Program-made: the position numbers and the translations under genes | Notes under the pieces: generated by a model | The model's database searches: none | What the model was told of the DNA's origin: nothing | What the model saw: the letters and a program-made list of their open reading frames with translations, nothing else | Origin: Allostella vacuolata | GTDB taxonomy: Bacteria; Pseudomonadota; Alphaproteobacteria; ATCC43930; Allostellaceae | DNA: 64,000 nt | Direction of reading: 5' to 3' | Assembly: GCA_006739055.1 (NCBI GenBank) | Contig: AP019702.1 | Span: 248,001 to 312,000 of the forward strand | Part shown: positions 10,458 through 20,690 of the stretch, piece by piece | How the letters are laid out: each line of letters begins with the position of its first letter | Position numbering within the stretch: position 1 is the stretch's first letter

Positions 10458-10599
10458 CGGGCCCGCCCCTATAGCATGGGGGGCCCGGCTGCGGCGATCC
10501 TGCGGCCAATGCCAGGATCCGCGACCGGTGCGATAAATCACAGTTTCGCCGCAATCCGACCAAGCGACTGTCGCATTCCGGCATCACATTGCTACCTGT

Positions 10600-10711
10600 C
10601 GCAAGGACGGAACATCGTACCGAGCGACGGTTTCAACGCCTCCTTGGCGGCTTGAACGCTGCCGCTCCGGGCGGTCGCCGATCCCCCCTCGGCGGCCGCC
10701 CACCTTTTTTT
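10600..10711 (+). ncRNA. Candidate small RNA, copy 1, with UCCUU loop and intrinsic terminator
   Basis: The 5' end is a guess from where conservation with copy 2 changes character. A hairpin at 10630-10657 pairs CGCC with GGCG and extends through CAA/TTG, leaving UCCUU (10641-10645) in the loop, complementary to a Shine-Dalgarno sequence. A terminator follows at 10669-10711. A similar plan, C-rich anti-Shine-Dalgarno loops before an intrinsic terminator, is known in alphaproteobacterial trans-acting RNAs of the AbcR, CcsR/cuckoo and ar14 types. Sequence identity with any of these could not be checked. Confidence 0.6.
10669..10711 (+). terminator. Intrinsic terminator of small RNA copy 1
   Basis: A 13-base stem (10669-10681 with 10689-10701, one G-T wobble) closes a TCCCCCC loop and is followed by seven T (10705-10711). 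This is the clearest Rho-independent terminator in the window. Confidence 0.85.
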
Positions 10712-10945
10712 GGCGTGCTGCTTCAGGCCCTTGTGTGACAGGCGCGGCGACCGGGGCCCAACCCCGGCTCGCCGTCGCCGCGGCGGCGGAGGTTCTGCGG
10801 GAAGATCGGCCGGCAACTACCTGAAACCGGCCGGCGATCGGCCTCGGGCGGCCGTGCCAGGTTCATTCTGGCGCAATAAATACCACGATCTTGCCGCAAT
10901 CTGCCCCTGGACCTGTCTCATTCCTGCATCAGATATTCGCGGTCG

Positions 10946-11052
10946 CGAGGGCATCGAACATCCCCCAGCGACAGAACTCGACGCCTCCTTGGCAGCACCA
11001 CGACCCGCTGCCCCTCGGGCGGCTGCCGTCCCCCCTCGGCAGCCGCCCTTCT
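10946..11052 (+). ncRNA. Candidate small RNA, copy 2, with UCCUU loop and intrinsic terminator
   Basis: This is the second member of the pair. GCC (10983-10985) pairs with GGC (10991-10993), again exposing UCCUU (10986-10990). The terminator is a perfect 12-base stem at 11017-11028/11037-11048. The stem around the UCCUU loop is shorter than in copy 1, but the loop itself is unchanged while flanking bases differ, which suggests selection on the loop. The 5' end is inferred from the alignment. It ends about 30 bases before ccmA, so leaky termination would feed the ccm operon. Confidence 0.6.
11017..11052 (+). terminator. Intrinsic terminator of small RNA copy 2
   Basis: A perfect 12-base stem GGGCGGCTGCCG / CGGCAGCCGCCC closes the loop TCCCCCCT and is followed by TTCTCTT. 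The T-run is weaker than in copy 1. Confidence 0.75.
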
Positions 11053-11081
11053 CTTGCCGGTTTCATGCTATCAACCGCGCG

Positions 11082-16469: not shown

Positions 16470-16966
16470 TGCGGGCCTGCCTCCTGGCGTTGCTGCTGGC
16501 CGTGTCCGGGCCGGCGCTGGCCGTCGAGCCGGGCGAGCGCCTGGCTGACCCCGCGTTGGAGGAACGCGCGCGCGAGCTGTCGAAGGAACTGCGCTGCCTC
16601 GTCTGCCAGAACCAGTCGATCGACGATTCGAACGCGCCGCTGGCCCGCGACCTGCGGGTGCTGGTGCGCGAGCGGCTGGCGGCCGGCGACGGCGACGCGG
16701 CCGTCCGCGACTACCTCGTCGCCCGCTACGGCGACTTCGTGCTGCTGCGCCCGCCGATGAAGCCGGAAACCTGGGCCCTGTGGCTGGCCCCGCCCCTGCT
16801 GCTGCTGGCGGGCGGCGCCATCGCCGTCCTGGCCTTCCGTCGCCGTCGCCAGCGCCCGGTCGAGGCGGATGCGCTGTCGCCGGTCCAGCGCGCGCGCGTC
16901 GACGCGCTGCTGGCCGAGGATGGCGACGGCCGCCATTCCGGGCATGAGGGGGGCGGCCGGCCGTGA
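16469..16966 (+). CDS. ccmH: Cytochrome c maturation protein CcmH (CycL type)
   Basis: The 165-residue protein has a signal peptide (about 1-18), a three-helix domain with the redox motif LRCLVCQNQ (Cys43, Cys46), and one C-terminal membrane helix (about 102-120). This is the short CcmH/CycL form, with the TPR part encoded separately as ccmI. It handles apocytochrome thiols alongside CcmG. Confidence 0.95.
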   Translation: MRACLLALLLAVSGPALAVEPGERLADPALEERARELSKELRCLVCQNQSIDDSNAPLARDLRVLVRERLAAGDGDAAVRDYLVARYGDFVLLRPPMKPETWALWLAPPLLLLAGGAIAVLAFRRRRQRPVEADALSPVQRARVDALLAEDGDGRHSGHEGGGRP

Positions 16967-18342
16967 TCGCATTCTGGCTGGCGGCCGGCCTGCTGGCGGC
17001 CCTGGTGGTGGCGGCGCTTGCCCGGCCGCTGCTGCGCCGCGGAGGGGCCGAGGCGGAGGGGCGCCTCGCCTACGACCTGGCCATCTATCGCGACCAGCTG
17101 GCGGAAGTCGAGCGTGGCCGGGCGTCGGGGGAGATCGGGGAGCGCGAGGCGGCCGCCTCGCGGGCGGAGATCGAGCGCCGCATCCTGGTCGCGGCCGACC
17201 GGGCCGAGGCCGAGGGGCCGCCCGTGCCGGAGCGTTCCATCCTGGCGGTGGTGCTGGCCCTGCTGCTGCCGGTCGGGGCGCTGGCGCTCTATGGCTGGCA
17301 GGGCGCGCCGCGCCTGCCGGCGCAGCCGCTGGCGGGACGAACCCTGCCGGCCGGCGAGGGCGATGTCGCGCGCATCCAGCAGGAGTCGATCAATGCCCTG
17401 GTCCGGCGCCTGGAAGAGCGGCCGGACGACCTGGAGAGCTGGGAGCGGCTGGGCCGCACCCTGGTCCGGGCGCAGCGCTTCGCCGATGCGGCCGAGGCCT
17501 ATCGCCACCGCATCGGACTGGGAGCGGAGCGGGCGGACCTCCATGCCGCCCATGGCGAGGCCTTGACGATGGCGGCGGGCGGCATCGTCACCCCGGCCGC
17601 CCGCGAGGCCTTCGCCCGCGCGCCGGACGATCCCCGCGCCATGTTCTTTCTCGGCGAGGCGGCCATGCAGGCGGGCGACCTGGACCAGGCCATCGCCCGC
17701 TGGACGGCGCTCGAAGGGCTGTCGCCGCCCGATGCCCCGTGGCGGCCGCTGCTGCGCCAGCGGATCGCCGAGGCGGCCACCCGCCGCGGCGTTCCGGCGC
17801 CACCCCCGGCGCCGGCCGGCGAGGGCCCCCCGGCCGGCGCGGTACCGCCCGGCGGCGAGGCACTGTTGCGGCTGTCGCCCGAGGAGCGGGCGCAGGCGAT
17901 CCGCGGGATGGTCGATGGGCTGGAGCAGCGCCTGCAGGCGGCGCCGGCGGATCGCGACGGCTGGCGGCGGCTCGCCCAGGCGTTGCGCGTCCTGGACGAC
18001 CCGCCCCGCCTGGCCGCCGCGCTAACCCGCGCCGTGGCGGCCTTTCCCGAGGATGTCGAGCTGCATCTCGACCTGGCCAACGCCCAGCTCGAGGTGGCGG
18101 GCGGCGACGACGTGCTGCCGGAGCCGTTCCTCGCCACCATCCGCGCGGCGGCACGGCTGGCGCCGGACCACCCGCAGATCCTGTGGTATCTCGGCCGTGC
18201 GGCAGCGGATGCCGGCGACCCCGCCGAGGCGCGGCGCCTGTGGCAGCGCCTGCTGGAGCGGCTGCCGGCCGGCTCGCCGGCGCGCGGCGCGGTCGAGTCG
18301 CGCCTGTCGGCGCTGCCGGAAAAAAAGACTACGGCGCCGTGA
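16963..18342 (+). CDS. ccmI: Cytochrome c maturation protein CcmI (CycH type)
   Basis: The 459-residue protein has two N-terminal membrane helices (about 3-22 and 88-106) with a leucine/arginine-rich cytoplasmic loop between (AYDLAIYRDQLAEVERG), then periplasmic TPR-like repeats. One TPR block includes RLEERPDDLESWERLGRTLV and a second lies around 300-450. CcmI chaperones apocytochrome c to CcmFH. A GTG start at 16963 overlaps the ccmH stop. It is the last ccm gene; a likely small RNA and a strong terminator follow. Confidence 0.93.
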   Translation: MIAFWLAAGLLAALVVAALARPLLRRGGAEAEGRLAYDLAIYRDQLAEVERGRASGEIGEREAAASRAEIERRILVAADRAEAEGPPVPERSILAVVLALLLPVGALALYGWQGAPRLPAQPLAGRTLPAGEGDVARIQQESINALVRRLEERPDDLESWERLGRTLVRAQRFADAAEAYRHRIGLGAERADLHAAHGEALTMAAGGIVTPAAREAFARAPDDPRAMFFLGEAAMQAGDLDQAIARWTALEGLSPPDAPWRPLLRQRIAEAATRRGVPAPPPAPAGEGPPAGAVPPGGEALLRLSPEERAQAIRGMVDGLEQRLQAAPADRDGWRRLAQALRVLDDPPRLAAALTRAVAAFPEDVELHLDLANAQLEVAGGDDVLPEPFLATIRAAARLAPDHPQILWYLGRAAADAGDPAEARRLWQRLLERLPAGSPARGAVESRLSALPEKKTTAP

Positions 18343-18354
18343 ACCTTTCCGGGG

Positions 18355-18468
18355 GCTGGGGCGTCTCTATCTGTGAGAGCGCGATCCCCCTCCCCAAGCC
18401 GCTCTCGACCTCGCTTCCCCAAGCGACGGGCCCGGTCGGATCCCCCCTCCGACCGGGCCCATCTTCTT
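18355..18468 (+). ncRNA. Candidate small RNA after ccmI with two C-loop hairpins
   Basis: Right after the ccmI stop come three ordered stem-loops. GAGAGCG/CGCTCTC (18375-18381 with 18400-18406) closes an 18-base loop rich in C (CCCCCTCCCC). TCGCTT/AAGCGA (18411-18426) closes a CCCC loop. The terminator follows at 18428-18460. C-rich loops of this kind can bind Shine-Dalgarno sequences, as in CcsR/cuckoo-type RNAs. It may be processed from the ccm transcript or have its own start; TGAAC at 18343 with CGTC 17 bases later faintly resembles an ECF-type promoter. Confidence 0.55.
18428..18460. terminator. Strong hairpin terminator between ccmI/small RNA and convergent rlmI
   Basis: A perfect 13-base stem, GGGCCCGGTCGGA / TCCGACCGGGCCC, closes a TCCCCCC loop; ATCTTCTTT follows on the plus side. 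On the minus side the stem lies 15 bases past the rlmI stop but has no T-run, so it may serve both directions unequally. Confidence 0.8.
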
Positions 18469-18475
18469 TCCGGCT

Positions 18476-19675
18476 TCAGTCGAGCGCCAGCGTCAGGCTC
18501 TTGAGGTAGGCGCTCTCCGGCAGCAGCGGGTGGACCGGATGGTCCGGCCCGGCCCCGCCGGTGCGCAGGATGCGGCCCGACCGGCCGGCATCGGCCAGCC
18601 CGCGCGCCACCTGCTCCGAGAACAGCGGCAGGTCGACATTGTGCGAGCAGGACGCGACGAAGAGATAGCCGCCCGGGGCCGTCACCTGAGCCGCCAGCCG
18701 GGTCAGCTTGCGATAGCCGCGGGTGCCCGAGGCCAGGTCCTTGCGCGACTTCACGAAGGCCGGCGGGTCGGCGATCACCACGTCCCAGCGCTCCTCGCCC
18801 TTGGCCCGCCCCTCCAGTTCGGCGAAGACCTCGCCGCGCTTGAAGGTGCAGGTCGCAGTGACCCCGCTCAGTTCGGCCGATGCCGCCGCCGACGCCAGGG
18901 CCGGCTCGGACCGGTCGAGCGCCAGCACGCTGGACGCCCCGCCGAGGGCGGCCGCGACCGCGAAGCCGCCGCCATAGGTGTAGAGGTCCAGCACCCGGAC
19001 GCCCGACGTCAGCCTGGCCACCCAGGCCCGGTTGTCGCGCTGGTCGAAGAACCAGCCGGTCTTCTGCCCGCCGAGCACGTCGATGGCGAAGCGGCCGCCA
19101 TTCTCCTCGATCTCGACCGGGCCGGCGAGTTCACCCACGGCCATGTCGACGCCGACGGGCAGCCCCTCCTGGGTCCGGGCCGGGCTGTCGCCGCGCAGCA
19201 CGATGGCGCGGGGCGCCAGCAGCGCCAGCAGCGATTCCTGTACCGACGGCCACAGCATCGCCATGCCGGCGGTGTTCACCTGCACGGCCAGCACGTCGCC
19301 GTAGCGGTCGATGACCAGGCCCGGCAGTCCGTCCGCCTCGGCATGGACCAGCCGGTAGAAGGGGCGCGGATAGAGCCGGTCGCGGATCTCCAGCGCGCGG
19401 CGCAGCCGGCGGCGGATGAACTCGTCATGGATGTGGCTGCCCGCCTCGCGCGTCAGCACCCGGGCGGCGATCAGCGTGTGCGGGTTGAAGGTCGCGGCGG
19501 CGACCTGGGTGCCCTCGGCCGTCACGACCGTGACCAGCGTGCCGGGCGGCAGCGCCTTGGCGGCCGCATCCATGGCGATCTCGTTGGAATAGATCCACGG
19601 ATGTCCGTGCCGCGCGCGCTTGTCGTGGCCGGGCAGCAGGGTGACGCGCGGCCGCGTCTTGGGGTTGTCTTGCAT
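18476..19675 (-). CDS. rlmI: Class I SAM-dependent 23S rRNA m5C methyltransferase (RlmI-like)
   Basis: The 399-residue protein has an N-terminal PUA-like RNA-binding domain (about 7-90, with KRARHGHPWIYSNEI), an EEHHH-like middle segment and a Rossmann methyltransferase domain. Motifs are VLDLYTYGGGFAVAAA for S-adenosylmethionine, IADPPAFVKS, and SCSHNV with the catalytic cysteine. RlmI methylates cytosine 1962 of 23S rRNA in E. coli. The start at 19673-19675 is where homology begins. It is followed by the terminator shared with ccmI. Confidence 0.9.
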   Translation of the reverse strand: MQDNPKTRPRVTLLPGHDKRARHGHPWIYSNEIAMDAAAKALPPGTLVTVVTAEGTQVAAATFNPHTLIAARVLTREAGSHIHDEFIRRRLRRALEIRDRLYPRPFYRLVHAEADGLPGLVIDRYGDVLAVQVNTAGMAMLWPSVQESLLALLAPRAIVLRGDSPARTQEGLPVGVDMAVGELAGPVEIEENGGRFAIDVLGGQKTGWFFDQRDNRAWVARLTSGVRVLDLYTYGGGFAVAAALGGASSVLALDRSEPALASAAASAELSGVTATCTFKRGEVFAELEGRAKGEERWDVVIADPPAFVKSRKDLASGTRGYRKLTRLAAQVTAPGGYLFVASCSHNVDLPLFSEQVARGLADAGRSGRILRTGGAGPDHPVHPLLPESAYLKSLTLALD

Positions 19676-19730
19676 GGCGGCGCAGCATAGTGATGCGCCG
19701 CCCGGCGGCAAGTGGGGGCTTGGCCGCAGC

Positions 19731-20690
19731 TCAGCCCGCGTCCCACTCGGCAGCGATGCGGCGGCGCAGGGCGGCGTCGGGCAGGGGGCCGGTGCCGGCG
19801 CGGGCATTGTCCGCCATGTGCTGCGGCCGGCTGGTGCCGGGGATGACGCAGGTCACCGCCTCGTGCCCGAGCAGGAACTTCAGCAGGATCTGGGCCCAGG
19901 TCTCGCAGCCGATCTCCGCGGCCCAGTCCGGCAGGGGGCGGCCGCGCAGGCCGCGCAGCAGCCCGCCGCCGCCGAACGGCTGGTTGACCAGCACGGCGAT
20001 GCCGCGGTCGGCGGCCAGCGGCAGGATCCGCCGTTCGGCCGCGCGGTCGTCCAGCGCGTAGTTGATCTGCACGAAGTCGAGCGTCTCGGCCCGCATCACC
20101 GCCTCCAGCTCGCCGTGGGCGGACTGGGTGTAGTGGGTGACGCCCAGATGCGCGATGCGGCCCTCGGCCTTCCAGGCGCGCAGGGTCTTCAGGTGTGTCC
20201 GCCAGTCGACCAGGTTGTGCACCTGCATCAGCTGGATGCGCGGGCGGCGCAGCAGCGCCAGCGATTCCTCCATCTGCCGGATGCCGGCCTCGCGGCCCCG
20301 GGTCCAGACCTTGGTGGCGAGGAAGGCGCGGTCGTGGCTGCCGGCCTCGGCCAGCAGGTCGCCGACCACCGCTTCCGACCGGCCATACATGGGCGAGCTG
20401 TCGATCACCGACCCGCCCGCCCGGAACAGAACCTCCAGCACCTCGGCCAGGGGCGCCCGGGCGCCCGGGTCCGGGCCGACGTCGAAGGTCCGCCAGGTGC
20501 CGCAGCCGACCACCGGCAGGGCCATGCCGCTGGAAGGGATGGTTCGCGTCCGCATCGTGGGGGATGACGGCGGCGACGGGGCGGCCGCGGCCCGGCCACC
20601 CATCGCGACCGCCGCGGCGGCCGAACCGGCCCAGCGCAGGAAGGTCGATCGGGCGATGCGCTGGCCGCCCTCGTGTCCCGTCGGGGTCAT
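19731..20690 (-). CDS. Aldo/keto reductase with an exported-looking N-terminus
   Basis: The 319-residue protein has the aldo/keto reductase barrel: DSSPMYG with catalytic Asp and Tyr, ATKVW with Lys, and QVHNL with His. The first 40 residues look like a signal sequence (ARSTFLRWAGSAAAAVAMGGRAAAA), Tat-like in shape but without a double arginine, so export is uncertain. GGAGGACGAG precedes the start ATG at 20688-20690. The leftward neighbour rlmI starts 55 bases downstream. The substrate is unknown. Confidence 0.87.
   Translation of the reverse strand: MTPTGHEGGQRIARSTFLRWAGSAAAAVAMGGRAAAAPSPPSSPTMRTRTIPSSGMALPVVGCGTWRTFDVGPDPGARAPLAEVLEVLFRAGGSVIDSSPMYGRSEAVVGDLLAEAGSHDRAFLATKVWTRGREAGIRQMEESLALLRRPRIQLMQVHNLVDWRTHLKTLRAWKAEGRIAHLGVTHYTQSAHGELEAVMRAETLDFVQINYALDDRAAERRILPLAADRGIAVLVNQPFGGGGLLRGLRGRPLPDWAAEIGCETWAQILLKFLLGHEAVTCVIPGTSRPQHMADNARAGTGPLPDAALRRRIAAEWDAG

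Follow-up and report, generated by a model that had tools for sequence, protein, structure and literature searches.

What is the hairpin-rich stretch that directly follows ccmI, the last gene of the ccm operon, in Allostella vacuolata (S. vacuolata here): the tail of the ccm transcript, or a gene in its own right? We approached this question in a 64-kb window, the whole 64,000-nucleotide stretch of contig AP019702.1 that was analyzed, at G000:C1:248001-312000, and in related genomes. The ccmI gene is an open reading frame of 459 aa on the forward strand (16963-18342, stop codon TGA at 18340-18342), with a match in 38 of 41 genomes; within the genus, the three other genomes show identities of 77, 71 and 63%. 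Behind it on the same strand lies hairpin 1 (18375-18406), in which GAGAGCG (18375-18381) pairs with CGCTCTC (18400-18406) and the loop, which includes CCCCCTCCCC (18386-18395), presents CCCCCUCCCC. Hairpin 2 (18411-18426) joins TCGCTT (18411-18416) to AAGCGA (18421-18426) around a CCCC loop, and a perfect 13-bp stem (18428-18460; 18428-18440 with 18448-18460) encloses the loop UCCCCCC and leads into the U tract ATCTTCTTT (18461-18469). The evidence for hairpin 1 comes from sequence, fold, covariation and loop conservation, that for hairpin 2 from sequence and fold, and that for the long stem from sequence and covariation. On the reverse strand, an open reading frame for a SAM-dependent rRNA methyltransferase-like protein converges on the element (18476-19807); we take it to be of the RlmI type. 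An earlier sequence-only reading had described the two hairpins presenting CCCCCUCCCC and CCCC and the perfect 13-bp stem, and all of these can be read directly on the forward strand at 18375-18460. That reading had also called the stem a terminator, which is likely but not certain, because the U tract is imperfect in S. vacuolata, where it is weak, and practically absent in S. humosa.

The element folds far better than its shuffled versions. At 18374-18468 (95 nt) the predicted fold has an energy of -48.2 kcal/mol, compared with -27.5 ± 3.0 for 200 shuffles (z -7.0, with none of the 200 as good), and the other four copies in the genus give z values of -3.2 to -5.9. For the longer stretch 18340-18475 the value is -3.4, and the minimum-energy fold disrupts hairpin 1, whose loop pairs instead with upstream G-rich DNA inside the promoter. 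Because of this upstream pairing, good formation of hairpin 1 is predicted only if the RNA starts near 18372, and not in a read-through ccm transcript. We also searched about 820 kb of the S. vacuolata genome, comprising the window and 38 fetched stretches (14% of the genome, chosen to include the small-RNA and ECF sigma loci), and found 14 perfect hairpins of at least 10 bp with at least 4 T in the next 8 nt. Two have a CCCC loop and none has GGGG; both CCCC hairpins are in the window, at 18428 and 11017.

The element is kept after ccmI in all four Stella-group genomes that we examined: S. vacuolata, S. humosa, Stella sp. ATCC 35155 and the metagenome-assembled genome MAG SJ646. MAG SJ646 (contig G003:C123) has two tandem copies, bringing the total to five; the first has retained neither hairpin 2 nor the greater part of the -35 element, and the second has a promoter motif of its own. 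In loop 1, CCCCCTCCCCAA is present in all five copies, and loop 2 is kept in four, missing only from the first tandem copy. The idea of a small RNA with C-rich loops, which the sequence-only reading would have given up had the loops varied among relatives, is supported by this conservation. Covariation points the same way. In an alignment of five sequences from one genus, with the structure drawn from the first, 86.9% of cells pair and 7 of 26 pairs changed on both sides, compared with 2.5 ± 1.1 in shuffles (0 of 500 reach 7) and 0-2 in slid controls. These changes include alignment pairs 6-36 and 9-33 in hairpin 1 and 4 of the 13 pairs in the long stem. With so few sequences, we regard the covariation as supporting, not conclusive, evidence for a conserved structure. 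Indels of 1-2 nt between species inside the RNA leave no common reading frame.

To follow the element further, we searched 61 genomes with a covariance model and obtained six matches in five genomes, five of which are the known copies. The sixth (E 0.004, genome G031) was rejected as a tRNA beside a terminator. In the sister family within the order, represented by 38 genomes, the model found no further copy. We also scanned 84,980 species, excluding the window's own record, for the promoter and loop letters and obtained 35 stretches, two of which (three matches) contain this element and belong to ATCC 35155 and MAG SJ646. Seven of the other 33 were inspected (three from Bradyrhizobium, one each from Aurantimonas and Sphingomonas, and two others) and lack the arrangement, and 26 were set aside by organism. 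Hence, among the model-searched genomes and the scan matches inspected, we found no element outside the genus.

The sequence in front of hairpin 1 resembles an ECF-type promoter. A -35 element TGAACCTTTC (18340-18349) and a -10 element CGTC (18362-18365) are arranged as TGAACCTTTC-N12-CGTC, which places 17 bp between GAAC and CGTC; conservation, a shared motif and matrix ranking all mark out this site (18340-18365). Transcription would probably start at 18372-18375, judging by how far from an ECF -10 element it usually begins. GAAC-N17-CG[T/A]C is present in all five copies of the four genomes, and the copies align without a gap from GAACC to hairpin 1. The ccmI gene of S. vacuolata and of MAG SJ646 ends on the TGA of TGAACC. 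In S. humosa and ATCC 35155 the gene stops further upstream, and TGAACC still keeps its distance from the hairpin.

The same motif recurs in front of a gene for an ECF sigma factor. The strict form, GAACCTTT-N13-CGWC, occurs at nine places in the four genomes, against three for the reversed pattern; four of the nine belong to the small RNA, three to an orthologous ECF sigma gene and two to other places. At the ECF gene, TGAACC[T/A]TTC...CGACTGAGG stands 36 nt before the ATG in all four genomes, within intergenic DNA that has otherwise diverged among them. We built a promoter matrix from these four ECF-gene sites alone, with no small-RNA site included. Position 18340 ranks second of about 1.64 million positions, all from the 820 kb that were selected to hold both loci; only the ECF promoter is higher, and nothing else comes within 2 bits. 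A matrix of 12 sites outside the small RNA places 18340 third, behind the ECF promoter and one other place. Against 20.6, the ATCC 35155 copy scored 17.9 and the second MAG SJ646 copy 16.7. The first MAG SJ646 copy has probably lost ECF-type control, since its score is only 2.7. The -10 elements differ in one letter, CGTC at the S. vacuolata small RNA versus CGAC at the ECF gene. A small RNA of an ECF regulon is expected to have a promoter that matches the sigma gene's own, and both the motif and the matrix give this match.

The candidate regulator is a 196-aa ECF sigma factor (G000:C1:4000960-4001550). Downstream of its gene lie an anti-sigma-like gene (with zf-HC2 at 24.4 bits and NCBIfam antisigma at 49.9, below the cut-off of 100) and a subtilase gene. 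The S. vacuolata genome has 27 sigma region-4 matches, and the motif lies directly in front only at this ECF gene. The cluster as a whole (G000:C1:3999290-4003951) adjoins a TPR/beta-barrel-like gene and has the promoter motif at its start in the four genomes. Elsewhere in Stella, NepR-like frames have a conserved EcfG-type motif, GGAACC-N16-CGTTGTGCAGGC, at a distance of a few hundred bases.

A wider pattern, TGAACC-N16-CGWCT, suggests what else this sigma factor may control. It occurs at 34 places in the four genomes, compared with 11 for the reversed pattern, and we examined 32 at their loci, leaving out the S. humosa small RNA and one coding-like MAG SJ646 repeat. Orthologous places in the same register comprise two groups of coding repeats and, among the non-coding groups, the small RNA, the ECF gene, a DUF1127-like gene, the gene for a 104-aa protein and an L,D-transpeptidase. 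The DUF1127-like gene (55 aa; PF06568 at 21.2 and 22.3 bits, cut-off 23.3) and the 104-aa protein gene both follow the motif in S. humosa and ATCC 35155; no S. vacuolata orthologue of either was found in 820 kb, and they may lie elsewhere in that genome. The motif also precedes the L,D-transpeptidase gene (domains Scaffold, PG_binding_1 and YkuD) of S. humosa and ATCC 35155 and, in a form with CGACC, that of S. vacuolata, which we located by synteny in 360 kb searched. A different DUF1127 gene of S. vacuolata (88 aa, 24.0 bits) is preceded by TGAACCTTTC...CGACT. At G000:C1:2652468 in S. vacuolata, as at ccmI, the preceding gene ends on the TGA of a TGAACCTTTC motif, and a DUF1127 gene lies behind the motif. 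Because the sigma/anti-sigma pair accompanies a secreted-looking protease and a cell-wall enzyme, the putative regulon suggests a response to envelope stress.

Could the element nevertheless be only the end of the ccm transcript, either as an RNA cut from the 3'-UTR by RNase E or simply as terminator or stability hairpins of the operon? The element immediately follows ccmI, shares its strand and has a stem that would be able to end the ccm transcript, so that read-through is compatible with what we see. The promoter-like motif speaks against this origin: it runs ungapped up to the hairpin although the ccmI stop shifts, it is common to the ECF sigma gene, and the second tandem copy in MAG SJ646 has its own. 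We consider an origin from the ccm transcript unlikely, and the proposal of the sequence-only reading that the RNA is released from it is probably wrong, given a predicted ECF-type promoter directly before hairpin 1 whose position stays fixed as the stop moves. Because that promoter directly precedes hairpin 1, the link to cytochrome c maturation drawn in the same reading is probably only positional.

A second doubt concerns the regulator. The RNA might be real and yet depend on another sigma factor, for example the general-stress factor EcfG, and would then be more closely analogous to GsrN. Three Stella genomes each have a single GGAACC-N16-CGTTGT close to a NepR match, and its GAAC-N17-CGT spacing is that of the small-RNA motif. 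However, the small-RNA motif combines TGAAC or CGAAC with CGTC or CGAC in all five copies, never GGAAC with CGTT, and the matrix shows it to be much closer to the promoter in front of the other ECF gene. The predicted motif of the general stress response in Stella thus differs from that of the small RNA, and we judge control by EcfG quite improbable. More skeptically still, the element could be non-functional or purely structural, a convergent-gene terminator whose C-rich loops are only decorative, or a small ORF. The convergent gene ends 8 bp past the U tract, and C-rich loops also occur in two elements before ccmA. Yet the loop letters are conserved while the stems change, CCCC loops are found in only 2 of the 14 T-followed hairpins in 820 kb, both in the window, and the 1-2 nt indels between species break any frame, which makes this reading very improbable.

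The explanation that we favor, and hold to be probable, is that 18340-18469 is a separate ECF-dependent small-RNA gene whose product acts in trans, with C-rich loops masking the ribosome sites of other mRNAs. RNA polymerase with an ECF sigma factor, the best candidate being the product of the 4000960-4001550 gene, would start at about 18372-18375, and the transcript would end behind the GC-rich stem. The resulting RNA would be about 95 nt long and consist almost entirely of hairpins. Its exposed CCCCCUCCCC, CCCC and UCCCCCC loops would pair with G-rich Shine-Dalgarno stretches of the GGGGAGGGG type in other mRNAs. Once stress, probably envelope stress, releases the sigma factor, this pairing would lower translation of the targets. 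Masking of ribosome sites by the loops is proposed by analogy with NfeR1.

We looked for targets with the exact nine-letter pattern GGGGAGGGG-N3-10-ATG, which occurs at 58 places in the four genomes, compared with 2 for the reversed pattern, an excess that mostly shows that such ribosome sites exist. For the comparison between genomes, 54 of the 58 were re-found and 4 were lost at contig ends; 8 with frames below 60 aa were dropped, and 46 were compared. The GGGGAGGGG site stands at a gene start in only two cross-genome groups: three genomes share a sulfatase-like gene and two a thioesterase-like gene, names that we gave from the sequences. One further group looks internal to a coding region. 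In front of the sulfatase-like gene, the DNA before the site has diverged among the three genomes. The two genes are candidate targets only, and the exact-site test is weak because conservation of strong ribosome sites is to be expected in any case and only two groups emerged from the 46 places compared.

Similar elements stand in tandem before ccmA, at 10570-10712 and 10905-11058 of the window on the forward strand. In each, ACGCCTCCTTGGC is accompanied by a stem of 12-13 bp that closes on a TCCCCCC loop and has a T-rich tail; S. humosa and Stella sp. ATCC 35155 have kept both elements. The pair probably corresponds to the first and second small-RNA candidates of the sequence-only reading. 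They are without the ECF motif and have in common an upstream stretch of the CTGTCGCATTCC type.

For the ccm locus, our analysis corrects what is likely a mis-assignment: a presumed ccm fragment becomes a candidate gene with its own promoter motif and a named candidate regulator. It also outlines a small candidate regulon of an ECF sigma factor, an anti-sigma factor, a small RNA, DUF1127-like proteins and an L,D-transpeptidase. Stella has attracted study because of its star shape; the matches listed in our literature search for the genus included no paper on small RNAs. More tentatively, one ECF sigma factor could govern a dispersed module of the CcsR-CcaF1 type, in which an RNA with anti-Shine-Dalgarno loops, DUF1127 proteins that would bind and mature this RNA, and cell-wall enzymes are encoded at unlinked loci. 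If this possibility holds, the star-shaped bacteria would use the small RNA as the repressing arm of an envelope-stress regulon, and the partnership between RNA and DUF1127 protein would have been kept or reinvented despite unlinked genes and a different kind of sigma factor. It would also raise the question of whether C-rich-loop RNAs and DUF1127 proteins are partners beyond neighboring loci. The DUF1127 parallel is the least certain part of our account because the Pfam matches are marginal and, according to parts of one report, DUF1127 proteins also have other roles (PMC12501420).

How does this RNA compare with known C-rich-loop RNAs? At the gathering score, Rfam gave no match in the 64-kb window. 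The best sub-threshold match was ar14 (RF02344; 30.6 bits, E 2.4e-4 for 201 bases, cut-off 58.8). Across the four Stella genomes no place exceeded the ar14 cut-off, and our locus was absent from the four places listed; the best, at 26.1 bits, lies elsewhere (G000:C1:1756447-1756513, reverse strand), where a pair of hairpins with loops TCCCCCTCCCCCC and ATCCCCCTCGC follows a gene end. GsrN (CC3664, RF01530) reached 22.6 bits against a cut-off of 60, and its model had no match in any of the four genomes. The sX13 model (RF02232) scored 26.3 bits against 50. In Xanthomonadaceae, sX13 has three stem-loops with C-rich loops, and is alike in this respect although it belongs to another class of bacteria.

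Published accounts, in the parts that we drew on, describe ar14/NfeR1 of the Rhizobiales as about 100-120 nt long, with three hairpins, C-rich loops complementary to ribosome sites and the terminator last (PMC10746234, PMC3927594), and state that the NfeR1 loops block the ntrB ribosome site and act redundantly (PMC10746234). Our element likewise has three hairpins, unpaired C-rich loops and variable stems. Its loops, however, are CCCCCUCCCC, CCCC and UCCCCCC, whereas ar14 has CCUCCUCCC in each of its three, and its promoter is of the ECF type, in contrast to the control of NfeR1 by LsrB and NtrC. GsrN of Caulobacter is, in the parts of its description used here, an ECF-sigma-dependent small RNA with a C-rich loop (PMC5869019). 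A C-rich loop and a putative ECF-type promoter are found here too, but as TGAAC-N17-CGTC and not the GGAAC-N15-17-CGTT of SigT/EcfG. CcsR1-4 of Rhodobacter sphaeroides are C-rich-loop stress RNAs made together with the DUF1127 RNA-binding protein CcaF1, to which a common stress promoter ties them, according to portions of the report (PMC10253847). In Stella the DUF1127-like genes, which are weak Pfam matches, appear to bear the ECF motif of the small RNA. Unlike CcsR and the cuckoo RNAs (CIN1 locus), the element is neither behind nor co-transcribed with a DUF1127 gene, having ccmI upstream and the convergent methyltransferase gene downstream, and its ECF motif takes the place of RpoH control. 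The loop motif of the cuckoo family (PMC10746234) differs from the loops of the small RNA. By these tests the element is no member of ar14, GsrN or CcsR, and by score it is no sX13. Taken together, these comparisons suggest a working principle like that of NfeR1, CcsR, GsrN and sX13, and we conclude that the element probably represents a new family within a known kind of small RNA and that it has a specific candidate regulator.
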